This document shows, piece by piece, positions 2,988 through 51,989 of a stretch of 64,000 nucleotides of DNA. The notes under the pieces are model-generated. The model was not told the DNA's origin. It did no database searches and was given only the letters and a program-made list of their open reading frames with translations. This stretch comes from Aquamicrobium sp. (GTDB lineage: Bacteria > Pseudomonadota > Alphaproteobacteria > Rhizobiales > Rhizobiaceae). The position numbers and the translations under genes are program-made. The stretch is from the NCBI GenBank assembly GCA_019739225.1, contig JAHHDT010000006.1:791501-855500 (forward strand). Direction: 5' to 3'. The number at the start of each line of letters is the position of its first letter. Position 1 is the stretch's first letter.

Positions 2988-4952
2988 ATGAACGCTTTCC
3001 GCATCTCGACCAGGCTTTATGCGCTGGTCGGTCTCACTCTTGTTATCATGGTCTCGGCCATGGGCTTCGCGCTGCTCCAGGAACACGAGAAGCTGGTGGA
3101 CGAGCGCAAGGCCATGCTGGCCGCCATGAACGAAAACGCCGTTCACATCTTCCAGGCCTATCAGGAGAAGGAAGCATCGGGCGCGCTGACCCGTGAGGAA
3201 GCGCAAAGCCTGGCGATGGAAGCCATCCGGCCGATGCGCTACCAGGCGGACGGCTATTTCTTCATCACCGACATGAACGAGAACATGCTGATGCACCCGG
3301 TGCGTCCCGACATGGATGGCACCAACCAGTCGGGCATGGAAGACCCGACGGGCAAGCGCATCTTCGTCGAGTTTGGCAATACGGTGGAGGCGGAAGGCAA
3401 GGGCTTCGTCGACTATCTGTGGCCCAAGCCCGGCCTTGAAGAACCCGTGCTGAAGCTCTCTCACGTGCAGGGCTTCGCCCCGTGGGGTTGGATCGTCGGC
3501 ACCGGCGTTTACGCCGACGACCTCGACGCAATGTTCTATGACAATGCGATGATTCTCGGCTCGGTCATGCTGATCGGCATTCTGCTGACGCTGGTCGCTG
3601 CCTATGCGGTGGTGCGCAGTGTCGTCCATCCGGTCAATGCGCTGACGTCGGTCATGGGCAGGCTGGCGTCGGGCGACAATTCCGTCGAGATTCCGGCCAT
3701 CAACCGGAAGGACGAGATCGGGGACATGGCCAAGGCCGTGCTCGTCTTCAAGGAAGCAGCGATCGAGAAGATCCGGCTCGAGGGCGAGACGGAGAGCGCG
3801 CGTGGTGCGGCCGACGCCGAGCGGTCTCGCAACGAAAGCGAGAAGGCCCGCAAGGCGGAGGAAGATCACGTCGCGATCGGCGCCCTTGCGGCCGGCCTAT
3901 CGGCGCTCGCCAATGGCGACCTGACCCACCGCATCACCGCCACCTTCTCCCCGGAAGCGCAGCGGTTGAAGGACGATTTCAACACCACGGCGCAGCAGCT
4001 CCAGGATACGATGGTGACGATCACCAGCGCCATCGAAGGCATGCGCTCCGGCACGGGTGAGATCAGCCAGGCAGCGGACGACCTGTCGCGGCGCACCGAG
4101 CAGCAGGCTGCGAGCCTGGAGGAGACCGCGGCGGCGCTGGACGAGATCACCGCAACGGTCAAGAAGACCGCCGAAGGCGCTCATCAGGCCTCGCAGGTGA
4201 CCGATCAGGCGCGTGTCGGTGCCGAGAAATCCGGCGCGGTTGTGCGTGAGGCGGTCGAGGCGATGGCGCAGATCGAGAAGTCTTCGCAACAGATCGGCCA
4301 GATCATCGGCGTGATCGACGAGATCGCTTTCCAGACCAACCTGCTGGCGCTCAATGCGGGGGTGGAAGCGGCGCGTGCGGGCGACGCAGGCAAGGGCTTC
4401 GCCGTCGTCGCTTCGGAAGTGCGTGCGCTGGCCCAGCGCTCGGCCGAAGCCGCCAAGGAGATCAAGGACCTCATCTCGACCTCGACTCAGCAGGTGGACC
4501 AGGGTGTCGATCTTGTCGGCCAGACAGGCTCGGCCTTGGACAAGATCGTCGCGCAGGTTGGGGAGATCACGGGCCTGGTGACGGAGATCGCGGCCTCGGC
4601 GCGCGAGCAGTCGACCGGGCTGGGCGAAGTGAACACGGCCGTCAACCAGATGGATCAGGTCACTCAGCAGAATGCGGCGATGGTCGAACAGTCGACGGCT
4701 GCCAGCCATCATCTGGCGCAGGAAGCCGACGAACTGGCGCGGCTCATGGCCAAATTCCGCCTCGGCAACCAGGCCGGAGCAAAGGCTGCGTCGCGTAAGG
4801 TCGCCGTGGCGGCGAACAGCTCGGCCCCCGTTGCCGCAGCGCCGAAGCCGCAGGCAGCACGTCCCACGCTCAAGACAGTCTCGGCCGGTGGCGGCCAGGC
4901 GGCAGCCCTGCTGGCAGTGCAGCCGCAGGACGACGGCTGGGAGGAGTTCTGA
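2988..4952 (+). CDS. Methyl-accepting chemotaxis protein with Cache sensor
   Basis: A 654-residue membrane chemoreceptor, first gene of the rightward che operon. Order: TM1 at about 9-30, a periplasmic single Cache domain at about 35-180 ([20 protein letters not shown]), TM2 at about 186-208, HAMP at about 208-262, a second HAMP-like stretch around [10 protein letters not shown] at about 310, then the long signalling coiled coil with the conserved hairpin tip [20 protein letters not shown]. After a linker rich in Ala, Pro and Lys the protein ends in GWEEF, a CheR/CheB tether pentapeptide like NWETF of enteric receptors. Cache domains of this type often bind small organic acids; the ligand cannot be told from sequence. 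Firm family call. Confidence 0.96.
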
Positions 4953-4961
4953 GCAGATAGT

Positions 4962-4990
4962 GAGACCGCCGCGAAATCAGCGGCGGTCTC
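4962..4990 (+). terminator. Strong hairpin after the mcp gene
   Basis: Perfect 11-bp arms GAGACCGCCGC/GCGGCGGTCTC with a 7-base loop, starting 9 bases after the mcp stop. The T-tract is weak (GTCTGT), so it may cut transcription only partly before cheW or protect the mcp mRNA 3' end. Confidence 0.6.
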
Positions 4991-5110
4991 GTCTGTCGCC
5001 GAGCGACCGTGCGGTCCGAACTAACGTGAAATTAACGCGATCGGACACATTCTTGGCACGTGAAGTTTCTGCGCGCTGCTTCATGTATCAGCGGAGTCTC
5101 AGGTCAGTAA

Positions 5111-5581
5111 ATGAGCGAACAATTCAATAGAAGAGCGTCCGACCGTCGCCGCGAACTGATCGCATTTCGCGTCGGCGAGCAGGAGTTCTGTGTCGACATC
5201 ATGTCGGTGCGCGAAATCCGCGGCTGGACGCCGGCAACGCCGCTGCCGCATGCGCAGAAGTTCATGCGCGGCGTCATCAACCTGCGTGGAACGGTGCTGC
5301 CGATCATCGACCTTTCCGCCCGGCTCGGCTTCGGCTTCACGACGCCGGAAGCCCGTCATGTGATCATCGTCGTGCGCGTAGGCGAGCAGGAGGCCGGACT
5401 GCTGGTCGATGCTGTCTGCGACATTCTCGGGGTAACCGAGGACATGCTTCAGCCCACGCCGAATGTAGCCAGCGAGACGGTCCGCTCGTTCATTCGCGGC
5501 ATACTCGCTGTTGAGGGCCGCATGATTGGCGAGATCGGCCTGGAGCGCATTCTGCCCGAAAAGGAAGCCGAGGCAGCATGA
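5111..5581 (+). CDS. cheW: Chemotaxis coupling protein CheW (copy in + arm)
   Basis: A 156-residue CheW that couples receptors to the CheA kinase at the cytoplasmic face of receptor arrays. It is a single CheW domain, with [20 protein letters not shown] near the start and the conserved [15 protein letters not shown] strand-loop at about residues 56-70. It follows the mcp gene, and its stop overlaps the cheR start by 4 bases (ATGA), so cheW-cheR-cheB are coupled. It is strikingly like the second CheW encoded at 9290-9769 on the other strand; the two look like paralogues from a duplication within this cluster. Confidence 0.96.
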
Positions 5582-6465
5582 CGACCGCCATCAGGCCTGC
5601 GACGGGTGCACGCCAGCAGGCGTTGGTCGAGGGCGAGTTCCTCTTCACCAACGATGATTTCCTCTCCATCGCGCGGATGCTGTACGACGACGCCGGCATT
5701 GCGCTGACCGAAAGCAAGGCCTCGCTGGTCTATTCCAGGCTCGCGAAGCGGTTGCGGGCGCTGGGACTGGAGAGCTTCCGCGATTACTGCAAATTCGTCG
5801 GCGGCTCCGAAGGGGTCGGCGAGCGCCAGAACATGCTGGCCGCGCTTACGACGAACGTCACGCGCTATTTCCGCGAGCCTCATCATTTCGAACATCTGAA
5901 GACCCGGGTTCTGCCCGAACTCGCCACGCGCGCGAGGGCACGGGGGCGGGTGCGCATCTGGTCGGCCGGCTGTTCGACGGGGCAGGAGCCCTATTCGATC
6001 GCTCTGACCCTTCTCGACATACTGCCCGACGCCGCGCAATACGACGTGCGCATCCTTGCAACGGACATCGATCCCAATGTGGTCGCGACGGGCCGGGCAG
6101 GCGTCTATTCCGACGAGGCAGTGCAGCCCGTGCCCACTGCCCTGCGTGACCGCTGGATGGTCCGGGTCAAGGATGGGGCGCGAGACGCCTGGGGTGCGGG
6201 CGAGGAGATGCGGCGGCTGGTTTCGTTCCGCGAGCTGAACCTGATGGGCAACTGGCCGATGAAGGGCCGGTTCGATGCCATCTTCTGCCGCAACGTGGTC
6301 ATATACTTCGACGAGGCGACGCAGGCGCGCATCTGGGCGCGCTTCGGGCCGCTGCTGAACCCGGGCGGGCGCCTGTATGTGGGGCATTCGGAGCGCGTCA
6401 CGGACATGGCCAGGTTCGAAACCGACGGGCTTACCACCTACCGCCTCCGAGACGGTGTTCGATGA
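5578..6465 (+). CDS. cheR: Chemotaxis receptor methyltransferase CheR
   Basis: A 295-residue S-adenosylmethionine-dependent glutamate methyltransferase that methylates chemoreceptors during adaptation. An N-terminal helical domain (about 20-95) is followed by the catalytic domain; the SAM-binding loop is [17 protein letters not shown] at about residues 127-143, ILATDIDPN follows, and [13 protein letters not shown] at about 237 is the conserved late motif. The beta-subdomain that docks receptor tail pentapeptides should lie between these motifs, and both receptors encoded in this cluster end in WEEF. The gene overlaps cheW and cheB by 4 bases each. Firm. Confidence 0.96.
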
Positions 6466-7499
6466 GCGTGGTCAAGGTTCTCGTCGTCGACGACAGCGCG
6501 ACGATGCGCAGCCTGATCTCGGCGGTTCTGCGCCGGGACCCCGAGATTTCCGTGATCGGGCAGGCCGGCGATCCGCTTGAAGCGCGCGAGGCCATCAAGC
6601 AGCTCAATCCTGACGTGATCACGCTCGACGTCGAGATGCCGAACATGAACGGGCTCGCGTTTCTGGAAAAGATCATGCGCCTGCGCCCGATGCCGGTGGT
6701 GATGGTCTCGACGCTGACGCAGGTCGGGGCCGATGTGAGCCTTGCAGCACTGGAGCTCGGTGCCATCGATTGCGTCGGCAAGCCGTCGGCCGGCGTGCCG
6801 GCAGAGCAGGCCTTTGCCGGACTGGCGGCGAAGGTCAAGGCGGCCGCGCGGGCGCGGGTAAGGCCGGATTCCGATCGTGCACCCAGCCATGCCGCCGGCG
6901 GCGATTTCAAGCCTGACGGGCGGGTCGTCGCGATCGGCTCGTCGACGGGCGGCGTTGAAGCGCTGCTGTCCGTGCTGTCGGCGTTCCCGGCCAACTGCCC
7001 GCCGACGGTCATCACCCAGCATATGCCCGGCACCTTCACCCGAAGCTTCGCCGAGCGTCTTAACCGCACCTGTGCCGCCCATGTTGAAGAAGCGACGGAG
7101 GGCGCGCAGCTTCGTGCCGGACAGATCTACCTTGCGCCAGGTGGAGACAACCATCTCCAGGTCGCCGGGTCGACGCAGCTCCGTTGCCGGCTGGTGCCGG
7201 ATGCGGCGGTCAACGGCCATCGTCCCTCGGTTGACGTGTTGTTCGATTCCGTCGCGCGCACGGTCGGCCGGAGCGCGGTCGGCGTGATCCTGACAGGTAT
7301 GGGGCGCGACGGTGCAAATGGCCTCCTGTCCATGCGCAATGCGGGCGCTGCGACGATCGGCCAGAACGAACAGACCTCGGTAGTCTACGGTATGCCGAGG
7401 GTCGCGTTCGAGGTTGGAGCGGTCGAGCGACAATTACCGCTGGAACGCATCGGTGCGGAAATCATCAACCGGTGCAACGCCACCAGGGAAACAGCTTGA
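6462..7499 (+). CDS. cheB: Chemotaxis methylesterase/glutamine deamidase CheB
   Basis: A 345-residue response-regulator methylesterase that removes receptor methyl groups when phosphorylated by CheA. The receiver domain occupies about 1-125, with acidic pocket D10/D11 and the phosphorylation site Asp56 ([10 protein letters not shown]). The methylesterase domain occupies about 155-340, with catalytic Ser in GSSTGG, His in [10 protein letters not shown] and Asp in [10 protein letters not shown]. The ATG overlaps the cheR stop (ATGA), so the ratio of the two adaptation enzymes is set by translational coupling. All catalytic residues are present. Confidence 0.97.
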
Positions 7500-7588
7500 T
7501 GTGCAGAGGGGGGCCATATGCACGCAATCACCGAAACACCACCTGATGGGTCGGGATCGACCGGACTTCGCCTGCGGAGTGCACGGCG

Positions 7589-8179
7589 ATGACACGCGGC
7601 ATGATCGAGCGAAGCCCGCCCGGCATACAGTCTTCCGTCACTGGTGGTCTGCGTGTCCACGTCGTGCAGGGCGAGCAGTTCGTCACCGATGATCCTGAAG
7701 CCGTGCTGACCACGCTGCTCGGTAGCTGCGTTGCCGCATGCATGCGCGACCCCGTCGCCGGCGTCGGCGGCATGAACCATTTTCTCTTGCCCGGCAATCG
7801 CTCTCAAGACACGGCTTCACAGGCGCAGCGCCATGGCGTTCACGCGATGGAGCTGCTCGTCAACGCGCTGCTTTCACGCGGCGCGCGGCGAGAGCGCCTC
7901 GAAGCCAAGCTCTTTGGCGGCGCGCGCCTGATCGATGGTCTTACGGATGTCGGCCGCCAGAACGCCGAGTTCGCCCAACGCTTCCTCACCGCCGAGGGCA
8001 TTCGTCATGCTGGCGGCAGCCTGCTTGGCGAACATGGACGCAAGGTTCAGTTCTGGCCGGTTTCCGGCCGTGCGCGTCAGTCGCTGATGGAACGCGAAAG
8101 CATTCAGGTCTTCGATGCCGAGCGCCGCATCCGTCCGGTGCCGCCGGTCGAAAGCGACGGTTCCGTCGAGCTGTTCTGA
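7589..8179 (+). CDS. cheD: Chemoreceptor glutamine deamidase CheD
   Basis: A 196-residue CheD, which deamidates specific receptor glutamines to glutamates. The conserved active-site segment [13 protein letters not shown] carries the catalytic Cys, followed by [10 protein letters not shown] with the catalytic His. It is the last gene of the rightward arm, 89 bases after cheB; that gap holds no other gene. An earlier in-frame start is not available, and the ATG at 7589 follows a purine-poor leader, so MIERSPPG a few codons later is a possible alternative start. The protein ends in SVELF, close to the VDLF end of the facing DxxxQ protein and the WEEF ends of the receptors. Confidence 0.95.
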
Positions 8180-8219
8180 TTTTTGGCAGATGGCCGCGCG
8201 CTGGTTCATGTCGGACTTC

Positions 8220-8294
8220 GTGCGTCCTTCGAGGCTCGATACGCTACAGTCCTCATCCTGAGGTGCGAGCGTAGCGAGCCTTGAAGGACGCACG
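8220..8294. repeat. Interspersed inverted-repeat element (compact copy) between convergent che arms
   Basis: GTGCGTCCTTCGAGGCTCG at the left end is repeated in inverse at the right end (CGAGCCTTGAAGGACGCAC), around a CCTCA-TCC-TGAGG mini-hairpin. The same sequence family occurs as inverted pairs at 46821-47002 and 51854-51989. Here the left unit is shortened. It lies in the 162-base gap between two convergent stop codons and could act as a two-way transcription stop. Confidence 0.85.
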
Positions 8295-8341
8295 GCAATA
8301 TCTGCCAGCGATGACGAGGTAGAATCGTCCGACTGCTGTGT

Positions 8342-8728
8342 TCAAAACAGGTCGACGTCGCCGGCCGTATCTTCATCCTTGGCCTGGATGGAAAGCCCTG
8401 CCTGACCGATCGAGCGGGCAAGTTCCGTGAGCTTGAGCGTGCCGGTTGCGGCCGCCGTGTCTATCCGCCAATGCGGATGCGCGGCATCGCCGATGGCGCG
8501 CAGGAAGTCAGCAACACCGGCAATGCGCTGCGCGCTGAGGTCGGCATCCTGCATTGCCTGCACATAGGCGGCATCCGCCACGCCGACATCCCAGGTCGAG
8601 CGGGCTATGGTCGCCTGATTGCGGTCGATGCGACGCGCGATTTCCTCCAGTTCCATCTGGATGCGGGCGAGCACGTCGGCCATCGACTCGGCTTGATCCG
8701 TGGCGTCTTCGCGCTGTGCATGGCTCAT
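8342..8728 (-). CDS. cheT: CheT/CheZ-like small chemotaxis protein with DxxxQ motif
   Basis: A 128-residue helical protein, last gene of the leftward arm, 92 bases after cheY2. Residues 63-67 read DLSAQ inside QDADLSAQRIAGVADFL, which lines up with the QDLTGQVIKR helix of CheZ, where Asp and Gln form the CheY-phosphate phosphatase site. It ends in GDVDLF; CheZ also uses its C-terminal tail to hold CheY. A DxxxQ protein named CheT sits at the end of the Sinorhizobium meliloti che operon, as I recall, and has been tied to CheY dephosphorylation and CheR binding. Position, size and motif all fit. The assignment is by motif and context rather than overall similarity; function is inferred. Confidence 0.68.
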   Translation of the reverse strand: MSHAQREDATDQAESMADVLARIQMELEEIARRIDRNQATIARSTWDVGVADAAYVQAMQDADLSAQRIAGVADFLRAIGDAAHPHWRIDTAAATGTLKLTELARSIGQAGLSIQAKDEDTAGDVDLF

Positions 8729-8820
8729 GATACTCGACCCTACGCTTTACTCGACATGTCCGGCCCAAACGCGGCCGGCATTTGAATTCTCCGCCGGCCA
8801 CCGGCCCGCGGCGGGCATCG

Positions 8821-9210
8821 TCAGTGGAGCTTGCCCACGATCGCTTCCAGAGCCCTGCGGAGCTGGTCGGGGTTGAAAGGCTTAGTCAGGTAGTTGTTCA
8901 GCCCGAGCTTGCGTCCTTCGTCCAGCACCGCGCGATCGGGGCTGCCGGTGAGGATCATGAACGGCGTGCGCGACGTCGGCTTGTAGGTCCGGATCGCGTG
9001 CAGGAGCTGCAGCCCGTTCATCTTGGGCATGTTCATGTCGGATATGATGAGATGAGACGGCGTCGTCATCATCATCTTCATCGCCTGCTCGCCGTCGGCC
9101 GCCACCTGGATGTTGCGGAAGCCGAGTGTTTCGAGCGCATCCCTGACGAGAAGCCGACTGGTTGTCGTGTCGTCGACGACGAGGATTTTCAACTGAGCAA
9201 GAAGTGACAT
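8821..9210 (-). CDS. cheY: Response regulator CheY2
   Basis: A 129-residue single receiver domain. Acidic pocket D13/D14, phosphorylation site Asp58 (LIISDMNMPKMNG), conserved Thr in ILTGS and Lys in LTKPFNPDQL. It matches the rhizobial CheY2 class, the output regulator that binds the flagellar motor, in position (downstream of cheA-cheW and before the DxxxQ protein) and in its Asp58 site. AGGAAAA precedes the ATG by 6 bases. CheY2 rather than CheY1 identity is inferred from order and residue numbering. Confidence 0.93.
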   Translation of the reverse strand: MSLLAQLKILVVDDTTTSRLLVRDALETLGFRNIQVAADGEQAMKMMMTTPSHLIISDMNMPKMNGLQLLHAIRTYKPTSRTPFMILTGSPDRAVLDEGRKLGLNNYLTKPFNPDQLRRALEAIVGKLH

Positions 9211-9289
9211 GGCTCGTTTTCCTTATTGCCCGCTCGCGCGGGATTTCCCTGTCTGTCGCCGCGTTCCCGGTCCCCGCGCGGCTAGGTTG

Positions 9290-9769
9290 TCAATTCAGCA
9301 GGCCCTGTCCTGCTGCCTGGTTCTGTGTCAGCACGTTGTCGAGCGCGATCAGGCTGATCATGCGCCCTTCCATCGCGATCACGCCCTTCATGAAGGTGCG
9401 TGCCAGATCCGAGGCGACGTTGGGGGTCGCCTGAATCGCGCCGGAATCGACGGTCAGGATGTCCGAGACTGCATCGACCAGCAGGCCGATGGTCTGGTGT
9501 CCGACCTGGGTGATGATGATGACATGGCGTGCGCTCGGCTCCGCCGGATCGAAACCCAGCCTGGCGGCCAGGTCGACAACCGGCAGCACGGCGCCGCGCA
9601 GGTTTATCACGCCCTTCACATAGGCCGACGAATGGGGCAGCGGCGTCGTCTGCGTCCAGCCGCGAATGTCGCGCACCGACATGATGTCGACGCAGAACTC
9701 CTGCTCGCCGAGGCGGAAAGCGATCAGCTCGTTGCTCGCCGTGGCGTCCTGTTCCCTGACCTGGATCAT
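9290..9769 (-). CDS. cheW: Chemotaxis coupling protein CheW (copy in - arm)
   Basis: A 159-residue CheW domain protein linking CheA to receptors. Its body ([20 protein letters not shown], then GVINLRGAVLPVVDLAARLG) is very close to the CheW at 5111-5581. It follows cheA with a 4-base overlap, as in the standard rhizobial cheA-cheW pair, so it is the more likely ancestral copy. The ATPNVASDLARTFMKGVIAMEGRMI stretch near the C-terminus (here only its position, about residues 115-140, matters) is also shared by both copies. Confidence 0.96.
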   Translation of the reverse strand: MIQVREQDATASNELIAFRLGEQEFCVDIMSVRDIRGWTQTTPLPHSSAYVKGVINLRGAVLPVVDLAARLGFDPAEPSARHVIIITQVGHQTIGLLVDAVSDILTVDSGAIQATPNVASDLARTFMKGVIAMEGRMISLIALDNVLTQNQAAGQGLLN

Positions 9770-11997
9770 GCTGCGCTCCTCTTTCGGTTTGCGTCGGCCC
9801 GCGCGACATCGCTGCGGGAGCCGGCAACAATTGCATCGACGTCAAGAATGACGGCCACGCGGCCATCGCCGAGAATGGTGGCTGCCGCCACGCCGAAGAC
9901 ATGGCCGTAGTTGGTTTCCAGGCTTTTGATGACGACCTGCTGCTGGCCGATGATACCGTCGACCATCAGTGCGCATTGCGACTGGTTCTCGGTCTCCACC
10001 ATCACCGCCACGCCCTGCAGCGGATCGGCCTCCTCGTCGCGATAGCTCAGCACGCTGCCGACATCGACAAGCGGGATGAAGGACCCGCGGATGGCGATCA
10101 CGCGTGCCTTCTCACCGAGCCCGTGAACATCTGCGGCTTTCGGCTGAAGGGTCTCGACGATGGCTGAGAGCGGCACGACCAGCGTCTGCCCGGCAACCGT
10201 GACCACCATGCCGTCAAGCACGGCCAGCGTCAGCGGCAGCGAGAGGGAGAAGGTCGTCCCGTTGCCGGGGCGTGAGGAAATGGTGATGCGCCCACCGAGC
10301 GCCTGGATGGAGCGGCGCACGACATCCATGCCGACGCCGCGTCCAGAAACGTCCGAGATGGTCGCCGCCGTGGAAAAGCCCGGTGCAAAAATCAGATCGT
10401 CGATCTCCGCGTCGGTAAGCGGGGCGTCGGCCTCGATGATGCCCTTGTTGACCGCGATCTCACGCACCTTGGCGCGGTTGATGCCGGCGCCGTCGTCAGA
10501 CACCTCGATCACCACGCGGCCGGAGCGGTGGGCCGCGACCATCTTGACCACGCCCTGCTCGGGCTTGCCGGCCTTTACGCGGTCTTCGGGCTTTTCCAGA
10601 CCATGGTCGATCGCGTTGCGGATCATGTGCGTCAGCGGGTCGGCCAGCCGCTCGATGACGGTCTTGTCGACTTCGCAATTCTCGCCTTCCGTGACGAGGC
10701 GGACCGACTTGCCCGTCATGTCGGCAACCTCGCGTACAACGCGGGACATGCGCTGGAAGATCGGCCGTACCGGCTGCGCGCGGATCGCCATGACGGAATC
10801 CTGGATCTCGCGGGTGAGATGCTCGAGGTCGTCAAGACCCACGGCAACGTCCGACAGGCGGGCGATGCCAGCTTCGGTTACGCGCTGAGCCAGCATAGAC
10901 TGGTTGATGACCAGCTCGCCGACCAGGTCGATCAGGCGATCGACGCGGTCGAGGTCGACGCGGATGGTGGCGCCGGGCTGCTGGGCAGACTGTGCTGCTG
11001 GTTGGGACTGCTGGTTGGCTGCAACAGGTGTCTTCGGTGCGGGTTCCAGAGCCGCTGCCGGCTCGATCGGGGCCGACACAGGCTCGACCGCCAGGGGCAG
11101 CACCGCTTCCGACTGGGCCGCTTCCTCAGCGGCGACCTGTGCAAGGATTGCCTCCACGGTCTGGCTGGCACTTTCCTCGTCCATGCCGATGACATTGACA
11201 TCGATCGACAGATCGCAATCGAATTCCACGAACTCGAAGATCTCGCGCACCGACTTTTCGTCGGCGTCGGTGGACAGGTCGATCTTCCAGGTCAGATAGG
11301 CGCCTTCGGGATCGATCTCGTCGAGCGGCGGCAGCGCGGCGACGTCGCAGGCGACTTCCATATCTCCCAGCCGGCCGAGCTCGCGCAACAGCCGCAGGGC
11401 ATCGTTGGCCTTGGAGTAGAGCTCCGGCCTAGGCGTGAAGCTGATCTCGAAACGATGCGCCCCTGCGGCAACATCCTCGGAAATCAGGGTATCGAACGAA
11501 ATCTGAACCGGTGCGAAGCCGAATTCATCGACCCCGGCGCCGTCGCCGCCCGCGGCCACAGGCTCGAAGGAAAAGTCGGCCGCGGGTGCGGGCTGAACCG
11601 CGGGGGCAGGGGCCATGCCGCCAGCCTTGCTCAACTCCTCCGTCATCTGCGCCACGCGCGTCGCATCCATCTCACCGCCATCGCGTGAGATGCGCACCAG
11701 ATCCGACAGGACGTCGGCGGAACGCAACATCAACTTGACGACCTGCGGGGTGATTTCGAGTTTTCCGCTGCGCATTCCGTCGAGCGTGGTCTCGAAGGTG
11801 TGTGCAAAGCGCACGAGGTCGTCGAGCCCGAAGGCTCCAGCGCCTCCTTTGATCGAGTGAACGGCGCGGAAGACGGCGTTGATCGTTTCGAGATCGCCCT
11901 CCTCGCGTTCGATCATCAACAGCCCTTCTTCCATCTCGGTGAGCTGTTCCTCGCACTCCTGAAAGAAGGTCTGCTTGATGGCGGCCATCGTATCCAT
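9766..11997 (-). CDS. cheA: Chemotaxis histidine kinase CheA
   Basis: A 743-residue kinase that phosphorylates the CheY proteins and CheB under receptor control. P1 (HPt) at about 1-110 with phospho-accepting His47 in RAVHSIKGGAGAFG; a response-regulator binding P2-like region at about 185-285; an Ala/Pro-rich linker; P3 dimerisation at about 340-400; P4 ATPase at about 400-600 with N-box HMIRNAIDHGLEKPED, DDGAGI and GRGVGMDVVRR; P5 CheW-like domain to the end. It is somewhat longer than enteric CheA because of the two linkers. It lies 20 bases after cheY1 with a GGAGG ribosome site, and overlaps cheW by 4 bases. Only one cheA exists in the window, so both arms must serve it. Confidence 0.97.
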   Translation of the reverse strand: MDTMAAIKQTFFQECEEQLTEMEEGLLMIEREEGDLETINAVFRAVHSIKGGAGAFGLDDLVRFAHTFETTLDGMRSGKLEITPQVVKLMLRSADVLSDLVRISRDGGEMDATRVAQMTEELSKAGGMAPAPAVQPAPAADFSFEPVAAGGDGAGVDEFGFAPVQISFDTLISEDVAAGAHRFEISFTPRPELYSKANDALRLLRELGRLGDMEVACDVAALPPLDEIDPEGAYLTWKIDLSTDADEKSVREIFEFVEFDCDLSIDVNVIGMDEESASQTVEAILAQVAAEEAAQSEAVLPLAVEPVSAPIEPAAALEPAPKTPVAANQQSQPAAQSAQQPGATIRVDLDRVDRLIDLVGELVINQSMLAQRVTEAGIARLSDVAVGLDDLEHLTREIQDSVMAIRAQPVRPIFQRMSRVVREVADMTGKSVRLVTEGENCEVDKTVIERLADPLTHMIRNAIDHGLEKPEDRVKAGKPEQGVVKMVAAHRSGRVVIEVSDDGAGINRAKVREIAVNKGIIEADAPLTDAEIDDLIFAPGFSTAATISDVSGRGVGMDVVRRSIQALGGRITISSRPGNGTTFSLSLPLTLAVLDGMVVTVAGQTLVVPLSAIVETLQPKAADVHGLGEKARVIAIRGSFIPLVDVGSVLSYRDEEADPLQGVAVMVETENQSQCALMVDGIIGQQQVVIKSLETNYGHVFGVAAATILGDGRVAVILDVDAIVAGSRSDVARADANRKRSAA

Positions 11998-12017
11998 GAT
12001 CGGGTGTCCTCCTTCGC

Positions 12018-12383
12018 TCAGGCGGCGACGCGGTTGATCGCGGTGACGAGCTTGACCGGATCGAACGGCTTTATGATCCAGCCACTTGCACCGGCCCGAC
12101 GCGCCCGATCCTTCTTGTCGTCGACGCTCTCGGTCGTCAGCACGAGGATGGGGATGGCGCGATGGCGATCTGACCCCCGCACGGCCTCGATGAAGCCGAA
12201 ACCGTCCATGCGGGGCATGTTGATGTCGGTAATGATGACGTCGGGGTCGCAGGTCTCCAGAACCTCGAGCCCATGCACACCGTCTTCAGCCTGCACAACC
12301 TCCATGCCGGCATCCGTGAGAGCCGCCTTCAGCATCTCGCGGATCGTGCGCGAATCATCAACGGTCAGGATTGTCTTCGCCAT
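12018..12383 (-). CDS. cheY: Response regulator CheY1
   Basis: A 121-residue single receiver domain with acidic pocket D9/D10, phospho-acceptor Asp53 (VIITDINMPRMDG), Thr in VLTTES and Lys in IIKPFDPVKL. It sits between the STAS gene and cheA, the place of cheY1 in Sinorhizobium-type operons, where CheY1 drains phosphate from CheY2 through CheA as a sink. The sink role is inferred from order; the protein family is certain. The gap to the STAS stop is only 2 bases. Confidence 0.93.
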   Translation of the reverse strand: MAKTILTVDDSRTIREMLKAALTDAGMEVVQAEDGVHGLEVLETCDPDVIITDINMPRMDGFGFIEAVRGSDRHRAIPILVLTTESVDDKKDRARRAGASGWIIKPFDPVKLVTAINRVAA

Positions 12384-12385
12384 GG

Positions 12386-12673
12386 TCAGTTGCTCCGTGC
12401 CGTGAATTGCGCGAGGTCAAGGCCAGCGGTCTGGATCGCGTCGACGAAAGCGGGCGAAGGCTCCTCGATCGTCAGTTCGGCACCGTCGGCGCTCCACGTC
12501 GCGGCGGCCGAAAGCAGCACCTGCAGGCATTGCCCACCGACGCGCTCGATCTGCGACGCATTGACGGCGAGGTCCTTCCCGCGTGCCGCCAGCAATTCGG
12601 CTGCAAGTGGACCGGCGGCCTTGATGTCGAGTTCATTGGAAAGCGTAATGCTTTCCGTTGCGGGTTTGCCCAT
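12386..12673 (-). CDS. cheS: STAS-domain chemotaxis protein, CheS-like
   Basis: A 95-residue single STAS domain (anti-sigma antagonist fold): strand SITLSNELDIKAA, then the SQIERVGGQCLQVLLSAA segment where phosphorylatable Ser/Thr sits in classic members; here that position is GG, so it is probably not regulated by phosphorylation. In rhizobia a protein of this size between icpA and cheY1 (CheS, also called CheX or orf2) binds CheA and speeds phosphate flow to CheY1. I chose the ATG at 12673, which has AGGAGAGGGGC just before it and lies 11 bases after the transducer stop; an ATG nine codons earlier would overlap that gene and lacks a site. Confidence 0.82.
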   Translation of the reverse strand: MGKPATESITLSNELDIKAAGPLAAELLAARGKDLAVNASQIERVGGQCLQVLLSAAATWSADGAELTIEEPSPAFVDAIQTAGLDLAQFTARSN

Positions 12674-12684
12674 GCCCCTCTCCT

Positions 12685-14277
12685 CTAGAATTCTTCCCAT
12701 TCGGACGTTTCCGTCCTGACCGCCAGTGCGGTCGCCCCTGCAGTTGCATAGACCGGCTGCCCCCTTGCCGGCCGTCCCGTCTGCGATGCCGTTGGCGCCG
12801 CCTTTGCCCTCGGCGCGTTGTCCAGGACAAACGCCGACACCCCTTCGGCAAGCGTTGCAGCCTCGCTGCGCAGCGAGTGGACCGCTGCGGTTGTCTGTTC
12901 GACCATGGCCGCGTTCTGCTGCGTTCCCTGATCCATCTCGCTGACCGCGGTATTGATGTCCGACAGACCCATCGACTGCTCGCGGGACGACGATGCGATG
13001 CCGGCCACCAGTTCGTCGATTTCCACGACGCTGGTGATGATCCGCTCCGAAACGTCGCCGGTCTCGGCCATCAGCTTCACGCCTCGCTCAACCTGAGCGG
13101 AACTCGTCGCGATCAGCGTCTTGATTTCCTTGGCGGCATCGGCCGAACGCTGCGCCAGCGCCCGCACCTCTTGCGCGACCACGGCAAAGCCCTTGCCCGC
13201 GTCGCCGGCCCGAGCGGCTTCCACGCCCGCATTGAGCGCCAGCAGGTTGGTCTGGAAGGCGATCTCGTCGATCACGCCGATGATCTGTGAAATCTCCTGC
13301 GAGGACTTTGCGATCTCGCTGATCGCGCGCACCGCATTGCCGACGATCTCGCCGGAATGCCGCGCTTCCTCGCGCGTCGACACCACTTTTGCTGCCGCCT
13401 GCGAGGCGCCGTCGGCGGCGCGCTTGACGCTGCCGGTGATCTGGTTGAGCGCGGCCGCGGTCTGCTCCAGGCGCATGGCCTGATGCTCGGTGCGGCGTGC
13501 AAGGTCGTCGGCCGCACGACCAACTTCCTCGGAACTCGAGCCGATGCTGTCCGCAGACTGCGCGACGGAGGAAAGCGTTCTGGCAAGCGCGGCGGCGGTG
13601 TGGTTGAAATCGGCCTTGAGCTGGTCGAATTCTGGAGCCAGCCGGTCGTCGAGCCGCGTCGTCAGATCGCCCGCAGCGATGCCGCCCAAAGCCCTCGTGA
13701 TCGCCTTGACGGCCTCGCCCTGGCGCTGCTCGGATTCAAGCCGCGCGCTTTCGGCTTCCTGACGCTTCTCATCGAGCGATTCCAGGTAAGTGGTGATCGC
13801 CAGGTCCATGTCGAGCATGATCGCTTTGAGCAGTGCCACGAGCATCTGGCTCATGGCTTCCGGCCCGCTGCGCGACATCAGGCGCGGCCAGTTTTCCTTG
13901 ACGACTGCCTTGACGAGATGCTCTGCGATGAGTGCATAGCCACCGATATACCAGGTGGGCTCAAGGCCAAGACGGGCGTGGGTCTCGCCGATGCGCCGCA
14001 CTGCCTGCTCATAGCTGTCGCCATAGGATGCTTCGGCAATGCCGGTCCAGTGGGTAGCCTGCCGACCCTTGGCGGACTCCATATGGCTGGCCGACGAAAA
14101 GAAGCCGCTGGTCTGCGGGTGGGTTCGCACCTTGTCGTAAAATACGGTCAGCGCCGGCCCGATCTCACGCGAGAGCAGGGGCTTCAGGTTCCTCAGATTC
14201 TGGCGGGTTGAGGAATCGAGACCGATGAAGTCGAGGCGGTCCTCGAGCGTCACCCGGGTCGCATGCGATGCGGCCAT
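12685..14277 (-). CDS. Soluble globin-coupled chemotaxis transducer (IcpA/HemAT-like)
   Basis: A 530-residue transducer without membrane segments, first gene of the leftward che operon. Residues about 10-160 are a protoglobin domain with proximal haem His100 in [19 protein letters not shown], so it should bind haem and sense oxygen. A HAMP-like stretch ([19 protein letters not shown]) at about 200 leads into the MCP signalling domain with the tip [20 protein letters not shown]. It ends in SEWEEF, a CheR/CheB tether. Its place ahead of the STAS gene and cheY1 matches icpA of Sinorhizobium. The 282 bases upstream (14278-14559) contain no gene and must hold the operon promoter. Confidence 0.93.
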
Positions 14278-46820: not shown

Positions 46821-47002
46821 GTGCGTCCTTCGAGGCTCGCTGCGCTCGCGCCTCAGGATGAGGGAGGTGGGTTGATCAGGCCCCGCGGTCGCGGCTCAAT
46901 TCGCGACAACGGAACGCTCCCTCGAGCCCAGAAGATTGCCGGAGCGATGGACAACCCTCCCTCATCCTGAGGTGCGAGCGCAGCGAGCCTCGAAGGACGC
47001 AC
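46821..47002. repeat. Inverted pair of interspersed repeat elements
   Basis: Left unit 46821-46870 begins GTGCGTCCTTCGAGGCTCG; right unit 46955-47002 is its reverse complement and ends CGAGCCTCGAAGGACGCAC. Each about 45 bases, 84 bases apart. Fills the 213-base gap between convergent ispG and the kinase gene. Same family as 8220-8294 and 51854-51989. Confidence 0.9.
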
Positions 47003-51853: not shown

Positions 51854-51989
51854 GTGCGTCCTTCGAGGCTCGCTGCGCTCGCACCTCAGGATGAGGGAGG
51901 TGGTTTGATCGAGGCCTAACGCATCATGGTCTCGATGCACTTCAGACCTCATCCTGAGGTGCGAGCGCAGCGAGCCTCGAAGGACGCAC
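51854..51989. repeat. Inverted pair of interspersed repeat elements
   Basis: Left unit 51854-51901 begins GTGCGTCCTTCGAGGCTCG; right unit 51947-51989 is its reverse complement and ends CGAGCCTCGAAGGACGCAC. The spacer is 45 bases. It lies between convergent rpmF and the acyl-CoA synthetase gene. Confidence 0.9.

Follow-up and report, generated by a model that had tools for sequence, protein, structure and literature searches.

How does a chemotaxis (che) operon come to lie in two pieces that face one another? This question is raised by positions 2988-14277 of the window, a 64,000-nucleotide stretch of Aquamicrobium sp. DNA from a genome of 5.35 Mb (contig C6, 1.1 Mb), where a minus-strand arm reading icpA-cheS-cheY1-cheA-cheW-cheY2-cheT converges with a plus-strand arm reading mcp-cheW-cheR-cheB-cheD. 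A preliminary description of the stretch had taken the two arms for the halves of one split rhizobial operon. As set out below, comparison with related genomes leads us to think that the native cheR, cheB and cheD were probably replaced by a block of other descent, resulting in a chimeric pathway. The locus is composed as follows.

2988..4952, + strand: membrane chemoreceptor (sCache_2, HAMP and MCPsignal domains by Pfam), C-terminus ...DGWEEF, at the head of the adaptation arm
5111..5581, + strand: cheW of the adaptation arm, a second CheW not close to that of the kinase arm (Pfam, trees, identity)
5578..6465, + strand: cheR, the single CheR found in the genome (Pfam, genome search)
6462..7499, + strand: cheB, receiver and methylesterase (Pfam; NCBIfam NF001965, 433 bits)
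7589..8179, + strand: cheD, receptor glutamine deamidase, C-terminus ...SVELF (Pfam)
8180..8341, no strand: 162-bp gap between the arms with a long inverted repeat, REP-like (repetitive extragenic palindromic), a possible two-way terminator (fold, repeat count)
8342..8728, - strand: cheT, CheZ-like phosphatase candidate (DXXXQ), C-terminus ...GDVDLF (NCBIfam NF047973 under cut-off, motif)
8821..9210, - strand: cheY2 (Pfam Response_reg, tree)
9290..9769, - strand: cheW of the kinase arm (Pfam, tree)
9766..11997, - strand: cheA (Hpt, H-kinase_dim, HATPase_c and CheW domains by Pfam; trees)
12018..12383, - strand: cheY1 (Pfam)
12386..12700, - strand: cheS (STAS_2 by Pfam)
12685..14277, - strand: icpA, a protoglobin receptor, C-terminus ...SEWEEF, at the head of the kinase arm (Pfam)

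Pfam domains and coordinates placed each gene where the preliminary description had put it, in the same order and on the same strand, and within each arm the genes overlap or stand at most 158 bp apart. The terminal gene of the minus arm is a candidate cheT, named by weak homology, position and motif: its product matches the NCBIfam CheT model NF047973 with an E value of 2.1e-13 and 50.4 bits, under the model cut-off of 200, and no Pfam family above cut-off, while the phosphatase motif, DLSAQ in the window, takes the form DXXXQ in all nine genomes that have two arms.

Searches of the window's genome found one CheR, one CheD, one CheB (at E<=1e-40), two CheW (at E<=1e-25) and one CheA, three further CheA matches being weak (E 1.4e-6 or worse). 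Since no other cheA, cheR, cheB or cheD of such kind was found in this genome, the two arms would have to supply one pathway. A passage describing class F7 in Sinorhizobium meliloti (PMC8429497) lists extra Y, S, D and T genes and one receptor gene, and it is from this description, rather than from a chemosensory class model, that we take the class. All members of a rhizobial F7-type pathway (S, Y1, A, W, R, B, Y2, D, T and an IcpA-like receptor) are present in the window, in two convergent arms instead of a single operon in standard order; the locus is a variant of that pathway and not an example of its operon. G005, alone among the eight genomes of the genus, has a second CheR, in a second che cluster (L133, G005:C2:515000-534900) that reads cheY-cheA-cheW-mcp-cheW-mcp-cheW-cheR-cheB and lies about 50 kb from its two-arm locus.

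To place this layout among relatives, 394 genomes of the family were searched, of which 202 gave a CheA (E<=1e-70) and 196 a CheB (E<=1e-80). The strands were tallied for the matches listed, that is, for 149 genomes per gene and 127 found in both lists. Among these, cheA and cheB lie on the same strand, 1.96-4.1 kb apart, in 119 of 127 genomes, and the eight exceptions (five with the genes on opposite strands, three with them on different contigs) are seven members of the genus and G093, a genome of another genus of the family. Another 74 named loci (L008-L081), several of which end at contig edges, include none with cheR or cheB on the strand opposite cheA. In five of 15 loci from other Hyphomicrobiales families (L262-L266), the adaptation genes and cheA-cheW do stand apart while sharing a strand. 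The standard rhizobial order from which the preliminary description had started thus holds: because nearly all relatives examined carry S-Y1-A-W-R-B-Y2-D-T on one strand, the two-arm state is derived, a stable trait of a small group. Seen only in the genus and G093 among the genomes tallied, it is not the ancestral state of most relatives.

Within the genus, which here means the Neoaquamicrobium/Aerobium group, cheR, cheB and cheD lie outside the kinase operon in all eight genomes, the window's included, as they do in G093, so that the two-arm state is no quirk of one assembly. By CheA, the nearest named relatives of the window's genome are Mesorhizobium sediminum KCTC 42205 (92%), then M. microcysteis and a Hyphomicrobiales metagenome-assembled genome (PRO1), followed by Aquamicrobium aerolatum, Aminobacter sp. 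J41 and A. zhengzhouense. In passages of a taxonomic study (PMC11057113), M. sediminum, M. microcysteis and Aquamicrobium aerolatum are renamed Neoaquamicrobium sediminum, N. microcysteis and Aerobium aerolatum. The M. sediminum genome (G004, locus L002) has its rpoB in three pieces and its cheD in two, which looks like the work of indel errors in the assembly.

The descent of the kinase arm was traced with eight relatives that carry a canonical operon and that, together with their close kin, have among the matches listed the CheA nearest the window's of all genomes without the two-arm layout: G087 (Mesorhizobium sp. L-8-3), G054, G127, G198, G091 (Nitratireductor arenosus), G235, G288 and G255 (Aquibium sp. 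ELW1220). The window's CheA is 67-74% identical to theirs and 57-63% identical to that of other family genomes among the matches listed, close kin of the eight excepted. CheA of the nine two-arm genomes and of the eight relatives forms one clade (support 99-100), and trees that unite the two-arm CheA with the Rhizobium group (p 8.9e-06) or with G520, a genome of another family (p 4.4e-42), are rejected. IcpA, CheY1, the kinase-arm CheW, CheY2 and CheT likewise group with whichever of the eight are present (support 91 to 100), the rows being thin for some of these trees (two for CheY2, five for IcpA). An RpoB tree of 29 genomes brings together the genus, seven of the eight relatives, G093, G074 and G106 (support 89), within which G087, G054, G074, G093 and G106 lie closer to the genus than do the five remaining relatives (90; support 89-90); the tree covers neither G006, which gave no rpoB row, nor G255. 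Rows on long branches in the first trees (G106, G146, G017 and G168) were dropped from later ones, as were eight long rows from the CheA tree with G520 and from the 65-taxon set used below.

The adaptation arm gave a different picture. For each of CheR, CheB, CheD and the plus-arm CheW, the nine two-arm genomes cluster tightly in a clade of their own (support 98-100), which in the best trees stands apart from the eight relatives. When CheR, CheB and CheD were joined for 73 taxa (40 of these 89 further loci were taken, and G294 was dropped as well), the two-arm group came out as sister to G520 (support 98), with Caulobacterales and one Acetobacteraceae metagenome-assembled genome next outward (99). 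Forcing the two-arm group together with the eight relatives made this tree 50.8 log units worse (p 0.0126), and the same constraint yielded p values of 0.0168 (CheR, CheB and CheD) and 0.0406 (CheW added) with 34 taxa, and of 0.0265 with 65 taxa and all four proteins. Identities run in the same direction: the window's CheB is 78% identical to that of G093, 70% to that of G520 and 64-72% to those of the seven Rhizobium-type genomes in the tree, against 56-60% for the five of the eight relatives among the matches listed (G054, G087, G127, G198 and G091). Taken together, these data are moderate evidence for a different descent of the adaptation genes. Of the gene trees foreseen in the preliminary description, then, that of cheA placed it with the canonical operons of the eight relatives, and those of cheR and cheB were mostly indecisive when taken singly.

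If a block of other descent did replace the native genes, the minus arm would be the native icpA-led operon, which would have lost cheR, cheB and cheD and kept cheY2 and cheT. The plus arm, with a lead receptor whose kind occurs elsewhere in family genomes, would consist of a cheW-cheR-cheB-cheD block of other descent to which methylation, demethylation and deamidation have passed. One complete rhizobial-type (F7-like) pathway would in this way have been assembled from two operons that differ in descent.

Another history is the split that the preliminary description had proposed: by rearrangement, cheR-cheB and cheD would have left the native operon, settled beside a receptor and a duplicate of cheW, and diverged afterwards. 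Each arm keeps the ancestor's gene order; the single-gene trees of CheR, and those of CheB and CheD in the wider set, do not reject a split; nor is an old cheW duplicate rejected, and in L262-L266 R-D-B or R-B stand apart from A-W with no change of strand. Yet the joined adaptation genes do reject a split (p 0.013-0.041), which would moreover need two excisions around cheY2 followed by a rejoining in order, and a recent cheW duplicate is 24.6 log units worse (p 0.072). A true split therefore seems unlikely to us. The part of the proposal that stands is the standard single-strand order, against which the two-arm state is derived; the part that is not supported is the common descent of the genes, the adaptation genes not falling with the eight relatives in the best joined trees.

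Replacement by a block of other descent has to be weighed against a number of observations that tell against it. Single-gene tests of the union of two-arm group and eight relatives gave p values of 0.048 for CheB, 0.37 for CheR and 0.125 for CheD; with 65 taxa these were 0.352 (CheB), 0.0737 (CheD) and 0.789 (CheR), and the 65-taxon CheR tree constrained to this union beat the free tree by 19.2 log units. A constraint uniting the two-arm group with G520 beat the free tree too, by 31.1 log units for CheR and 5.7 for CheD, from which it follows that the quick CheR and CheD searches were poor, the one for CheR having missed the best tree. The joined sets were likewise searched quickly, and their p values all fall in the range 0.01-0.05. 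The match between RpoB and the che trees is only broad, and the che operons of G074 and G106 are of other types. Among the matches listed for the 394 family genomes, no genome combines the native genes with a set like that of the plus arm, and each of the seven genus genomes listed, like G093, has one CheB at E<=1e-80. Inspection by eye of the gap translations (79, 92, 158 and 89 bp) revealed no remnants of lost genes. The best plasmid matches for CheB, on Sinorhizobium and Shinella replicons, reach 64-67% and point to no donor. Finally, fast evolution of the adaptation genes in the eight relatives could mimic part of the signal.

Two members of the plus arm call for separate treatment. With the kinase-arm CheW of the same genome the extra CheW shares 61% identity, as against 62-66% with the operon CheW of genomes without two arms. 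A recent copy of the kinase-arm cheW is disfavoured by this identity and by a tree 24.6 log units worse, and is only nearly rejected (p 0.0721), while an old duplicate is compatible with the data (p 0.645; G294 was dropped from both tests); both p values count against an incoming cheW. The receptor at the head of the arm shares 73% identity, over its signalling half, with another receptor encoded in this genome. It is not favoured as the lead receptor of an incoming operon and was probably not part of the incoming block, since its best matches in G087, G127, G091 and G054 (65-70%) lie far from their che operons, compared with 60-61% for the receptors that G074 and G520 carry at their che loci. 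This, too, takes something away from the arrival of a complete receptor-led block.

How might a block of other descent have come to complement the native operon so exactly? Both arms are collinear with the ancestral order, which fits reciprocal loss from two full operons, because such loss predicts it. It is conceivable, and we put it forward tentatively, that a second complete che operon entered the ancestor and that reciprocal loss continued until each single-copy function was kept once and CheW from both. A, S, Y1, Y2 and T would on that account come from the native operon and R, B and D from the incomer. One genome can hold two full sets, as in G289, with its contamination estimate of 4%, where two CheA (58 and 59%) each lie 3.6-3.7 kb from a CheB (69 and 68%) on two contigs. 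Both of its sets (C27:22930-27611 and C2:332442-337184) are of Rhizobium type, and the assembly is perhaps a mixture. Exchange of whole che operons seems to occur in the family, because the G074 operon is of another type though its RpoB groups with those of G054 and G087. This operon (L192) and those of L027 (Aminobacter ciceronei) and L046 (Mesorhizobium soli) are canonical operons of another type, with CheA at 59-63%.

An old duplication within the lineage would differ from replacement by a block of other descent solely in needing no transfer between species: the ancestor would have had two operons, of which the eight relatives lost one and the two-arm group kept part of each. Such a duplication would account for the collinearity of the arms and for the distance between the two cheW, and G289 (contamination 4%) has two such sets. 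Against this, no CheB more than 72% identical to the plus-arm CheB was seen outside the group among the matches listed for the 394 family genomes, and the block groups with another family and Caulobacterales, not at the base of the family. We consider such a duplication quite improbable.

The neighbourhoods of the arms bear on what happened after they had formed. The arms are adjacent and convergent in six of the nine two-arm genomes (G000, G003, G004, G005, G007 and G093) and lie on separate contigs in the other three (G001, G002 and G006). Adjacency may be the older state, with separations later, because it is shared by G093, a genome that the CheA tree places outside the genus; the CheR tree does not place G093 there. 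The kinase arms of G005 and G006 showed no icpA, and in G003 and G093 the contig stops just before the plus-arm receptor. LysR and aldehyde dehydrogenase genes stand to the right of the kinase arm in all nine genomes, genes farther out being common to some. The left flank of the adaptation arm is conserved in part, with a sigma factor gene in G001, G004 and G005 and a DUF6537 gene in G004 and G006. At 1200-2573 of the window, just upstream of the plus arm, a sigma-70-type factor with DUF6596 is encoded, a candidate neighbouring regulator. A flagellin gene is close to the che operon at seven of eight loci of the eight relatives, versus none of the 16 two-arm stretches examined, several of which overlap, and it would seem that the kinase arm has moved out of its flagellar surroundings as well.

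Between the arms, the gap at 8180-8341 folds into a long hairpin (-82.8 kcal/mol, z -5.99, none of 200 shuffles as good). A REP-like word, CCTCATCCTGAGGTGC, has five copies in the window at up to one mismatch, versus 0.01 expected, and such REP-like palindromes lie at 8251-8266, 46848-46975 and 51881-51962, with inverted pairs at 46.9 and 51.9 kb. A terminator scan gave results at chance level.

Do the two arms then have separate control, as the preliminary description had supposed? Transcription under different conditions would tune adaptation apart from the kinase and would be compatible with any origin of the arms. Upstream of the plus-arm receptor lie 414 bp, and icpA is separated from the next LysR gene by about 0.7 kb, so that each arm has an upstream region to itself; a strong hairpin lies between the two arms, and the arms are on different contigs in three of nine genomes. 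On the other side, a scan for sigma-70 promoters found one site versus 1.7 expected, flagellar-type promoters being outside its scope, and both arms could share one regulator, as does the E. coli pair of che operons. Separate control is a real possibility that falls somewhat short of being our expectation.

Whatever their control, the arms would work as one pathway. According to passages of PMC12654446, CheS binds CheA and shapes the flow of phosphate between two CheY, CheT carries DXXXQ, accelerates the dephosphorylation of one CheY and, in S. meliloti, is reported to form a complex with CheR, and CheR, CheB and CheD adjust receptors. In the two-arm genomes, all seven IcpA and all seven plus-arm receptors seen end in WEEF or WDEF, both receptors in the window having WEEF; an aromatic C-terminal pentapeptide, a W(E/D)EF tether, is thus found on both lead receptors. 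Judging by these tails, the plus-arm CheR and CheB may dock on both receptors via the tether, and the native-arm CheA would have to phosphorylate the plus-arm CheB. Since no other cheR, cheB or cheD was found, the plus-arm enzymes would have to serve all receptors, IcpA included. IcpA itself, with its protoglobin domain, presumably serves as a sensor of oxygen or a related gas. Its W..F pentapeptide occurs in the two-arm group and in five of the eight relatives, and not in seven Rhizobium-type genomes (G010, G020, G068, G080, G115, G150 and G270). CheD and CheT end in (E/D)-x-F in 23 of 24 rows listed each (for instance ...SVELF and ...DVDLF), the exceptions being the broken L002 copy of CheD and the CheT of L044, and the receptors in L263, L265 and L266 end in ...IELF; this tail is possibly a common docking peptide.

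The target of the CheY proteins is presumably the flagellar motor. A FliM search of the window's genome was negative and uninformative, rhizobial FliM scoring only E 0.023 with the same model, and when flagellar regions from two Rhizobium-type genomes were compared with the 0.81 of 5.35 Mb sampled, the matches were all short, at 24-62 residues. Passages of PMC11057113 describe Neoaquamicrobium and Aerobium as motile.

Compared with known systems, the locus has the same S, Y1, A, W, R, B, Y2, D and T and the same IcpA-like receptor as the F7 cluster of Sinorhizobium meliloti, Rhizobium leguminosarum and Agrobacterium, and differs from it in its two convergent arms, its second CheW and the apparently other descent of its R, B and D. 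The canonical operons of G087, G091 and G255 are the closest kin of the kinase arm (CheA 71-73%, among the matches listed), but keep R, B and D inside the operon, in standard order. L262-L266 also have adaptation genes separate from cheA-cheW, but on the same strand, with the next labelled gene 0.6-2.1 kb from cheW and in another gene order. In E. coli, cheA-cheW are in the mocha operon and receptors are with cheR-cheB in the meche operon (a passage of PMC2716512), and a comparison of 206 species (passages of PMC2829493) shows A-W and R-B to be the two blocks that recur in che operons. By gene order alone, the locus resembles E. coli in having A-W in one row and a receptor with R-B in another. 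Unlike in E. coli, where cheY and the phosphatase gene accompany R-B and motor genes accompany A-W, both CheY and the CheZ-like CheT (cheY1, cheY2 and cheT) sit with CheA, and the arms contain no motor genes.

Because E. coli also keeps kinase and adaptation genes apart, the layout alone matters little, and the separation is not new in itself; the interesting part is the mixed ancestry. The listings and passages of open-access literature that we consulted contain no description of this arrangement in the genus, nor of the replacement of an adaptation module in a rhizobial operon. If the different descent is true, the locus would be a natural swap experiment, in which an intact kinase module is combined with the adaptation enzymes of another lineage. 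If, further, reciprocal loss is true, then CheT, the partner of CheR in S. meliloti according to those passages that describe the complex, and CheA, the partner of CheB, would each face partners of other descent. Such a locus would test which contacts must co-evolve and which are interchangeable, among them CheA-CheB, CheT-CheR and receptor tether-CheR, and would mean that gene loss after the acquisition of an operon can rebuild a pathway.

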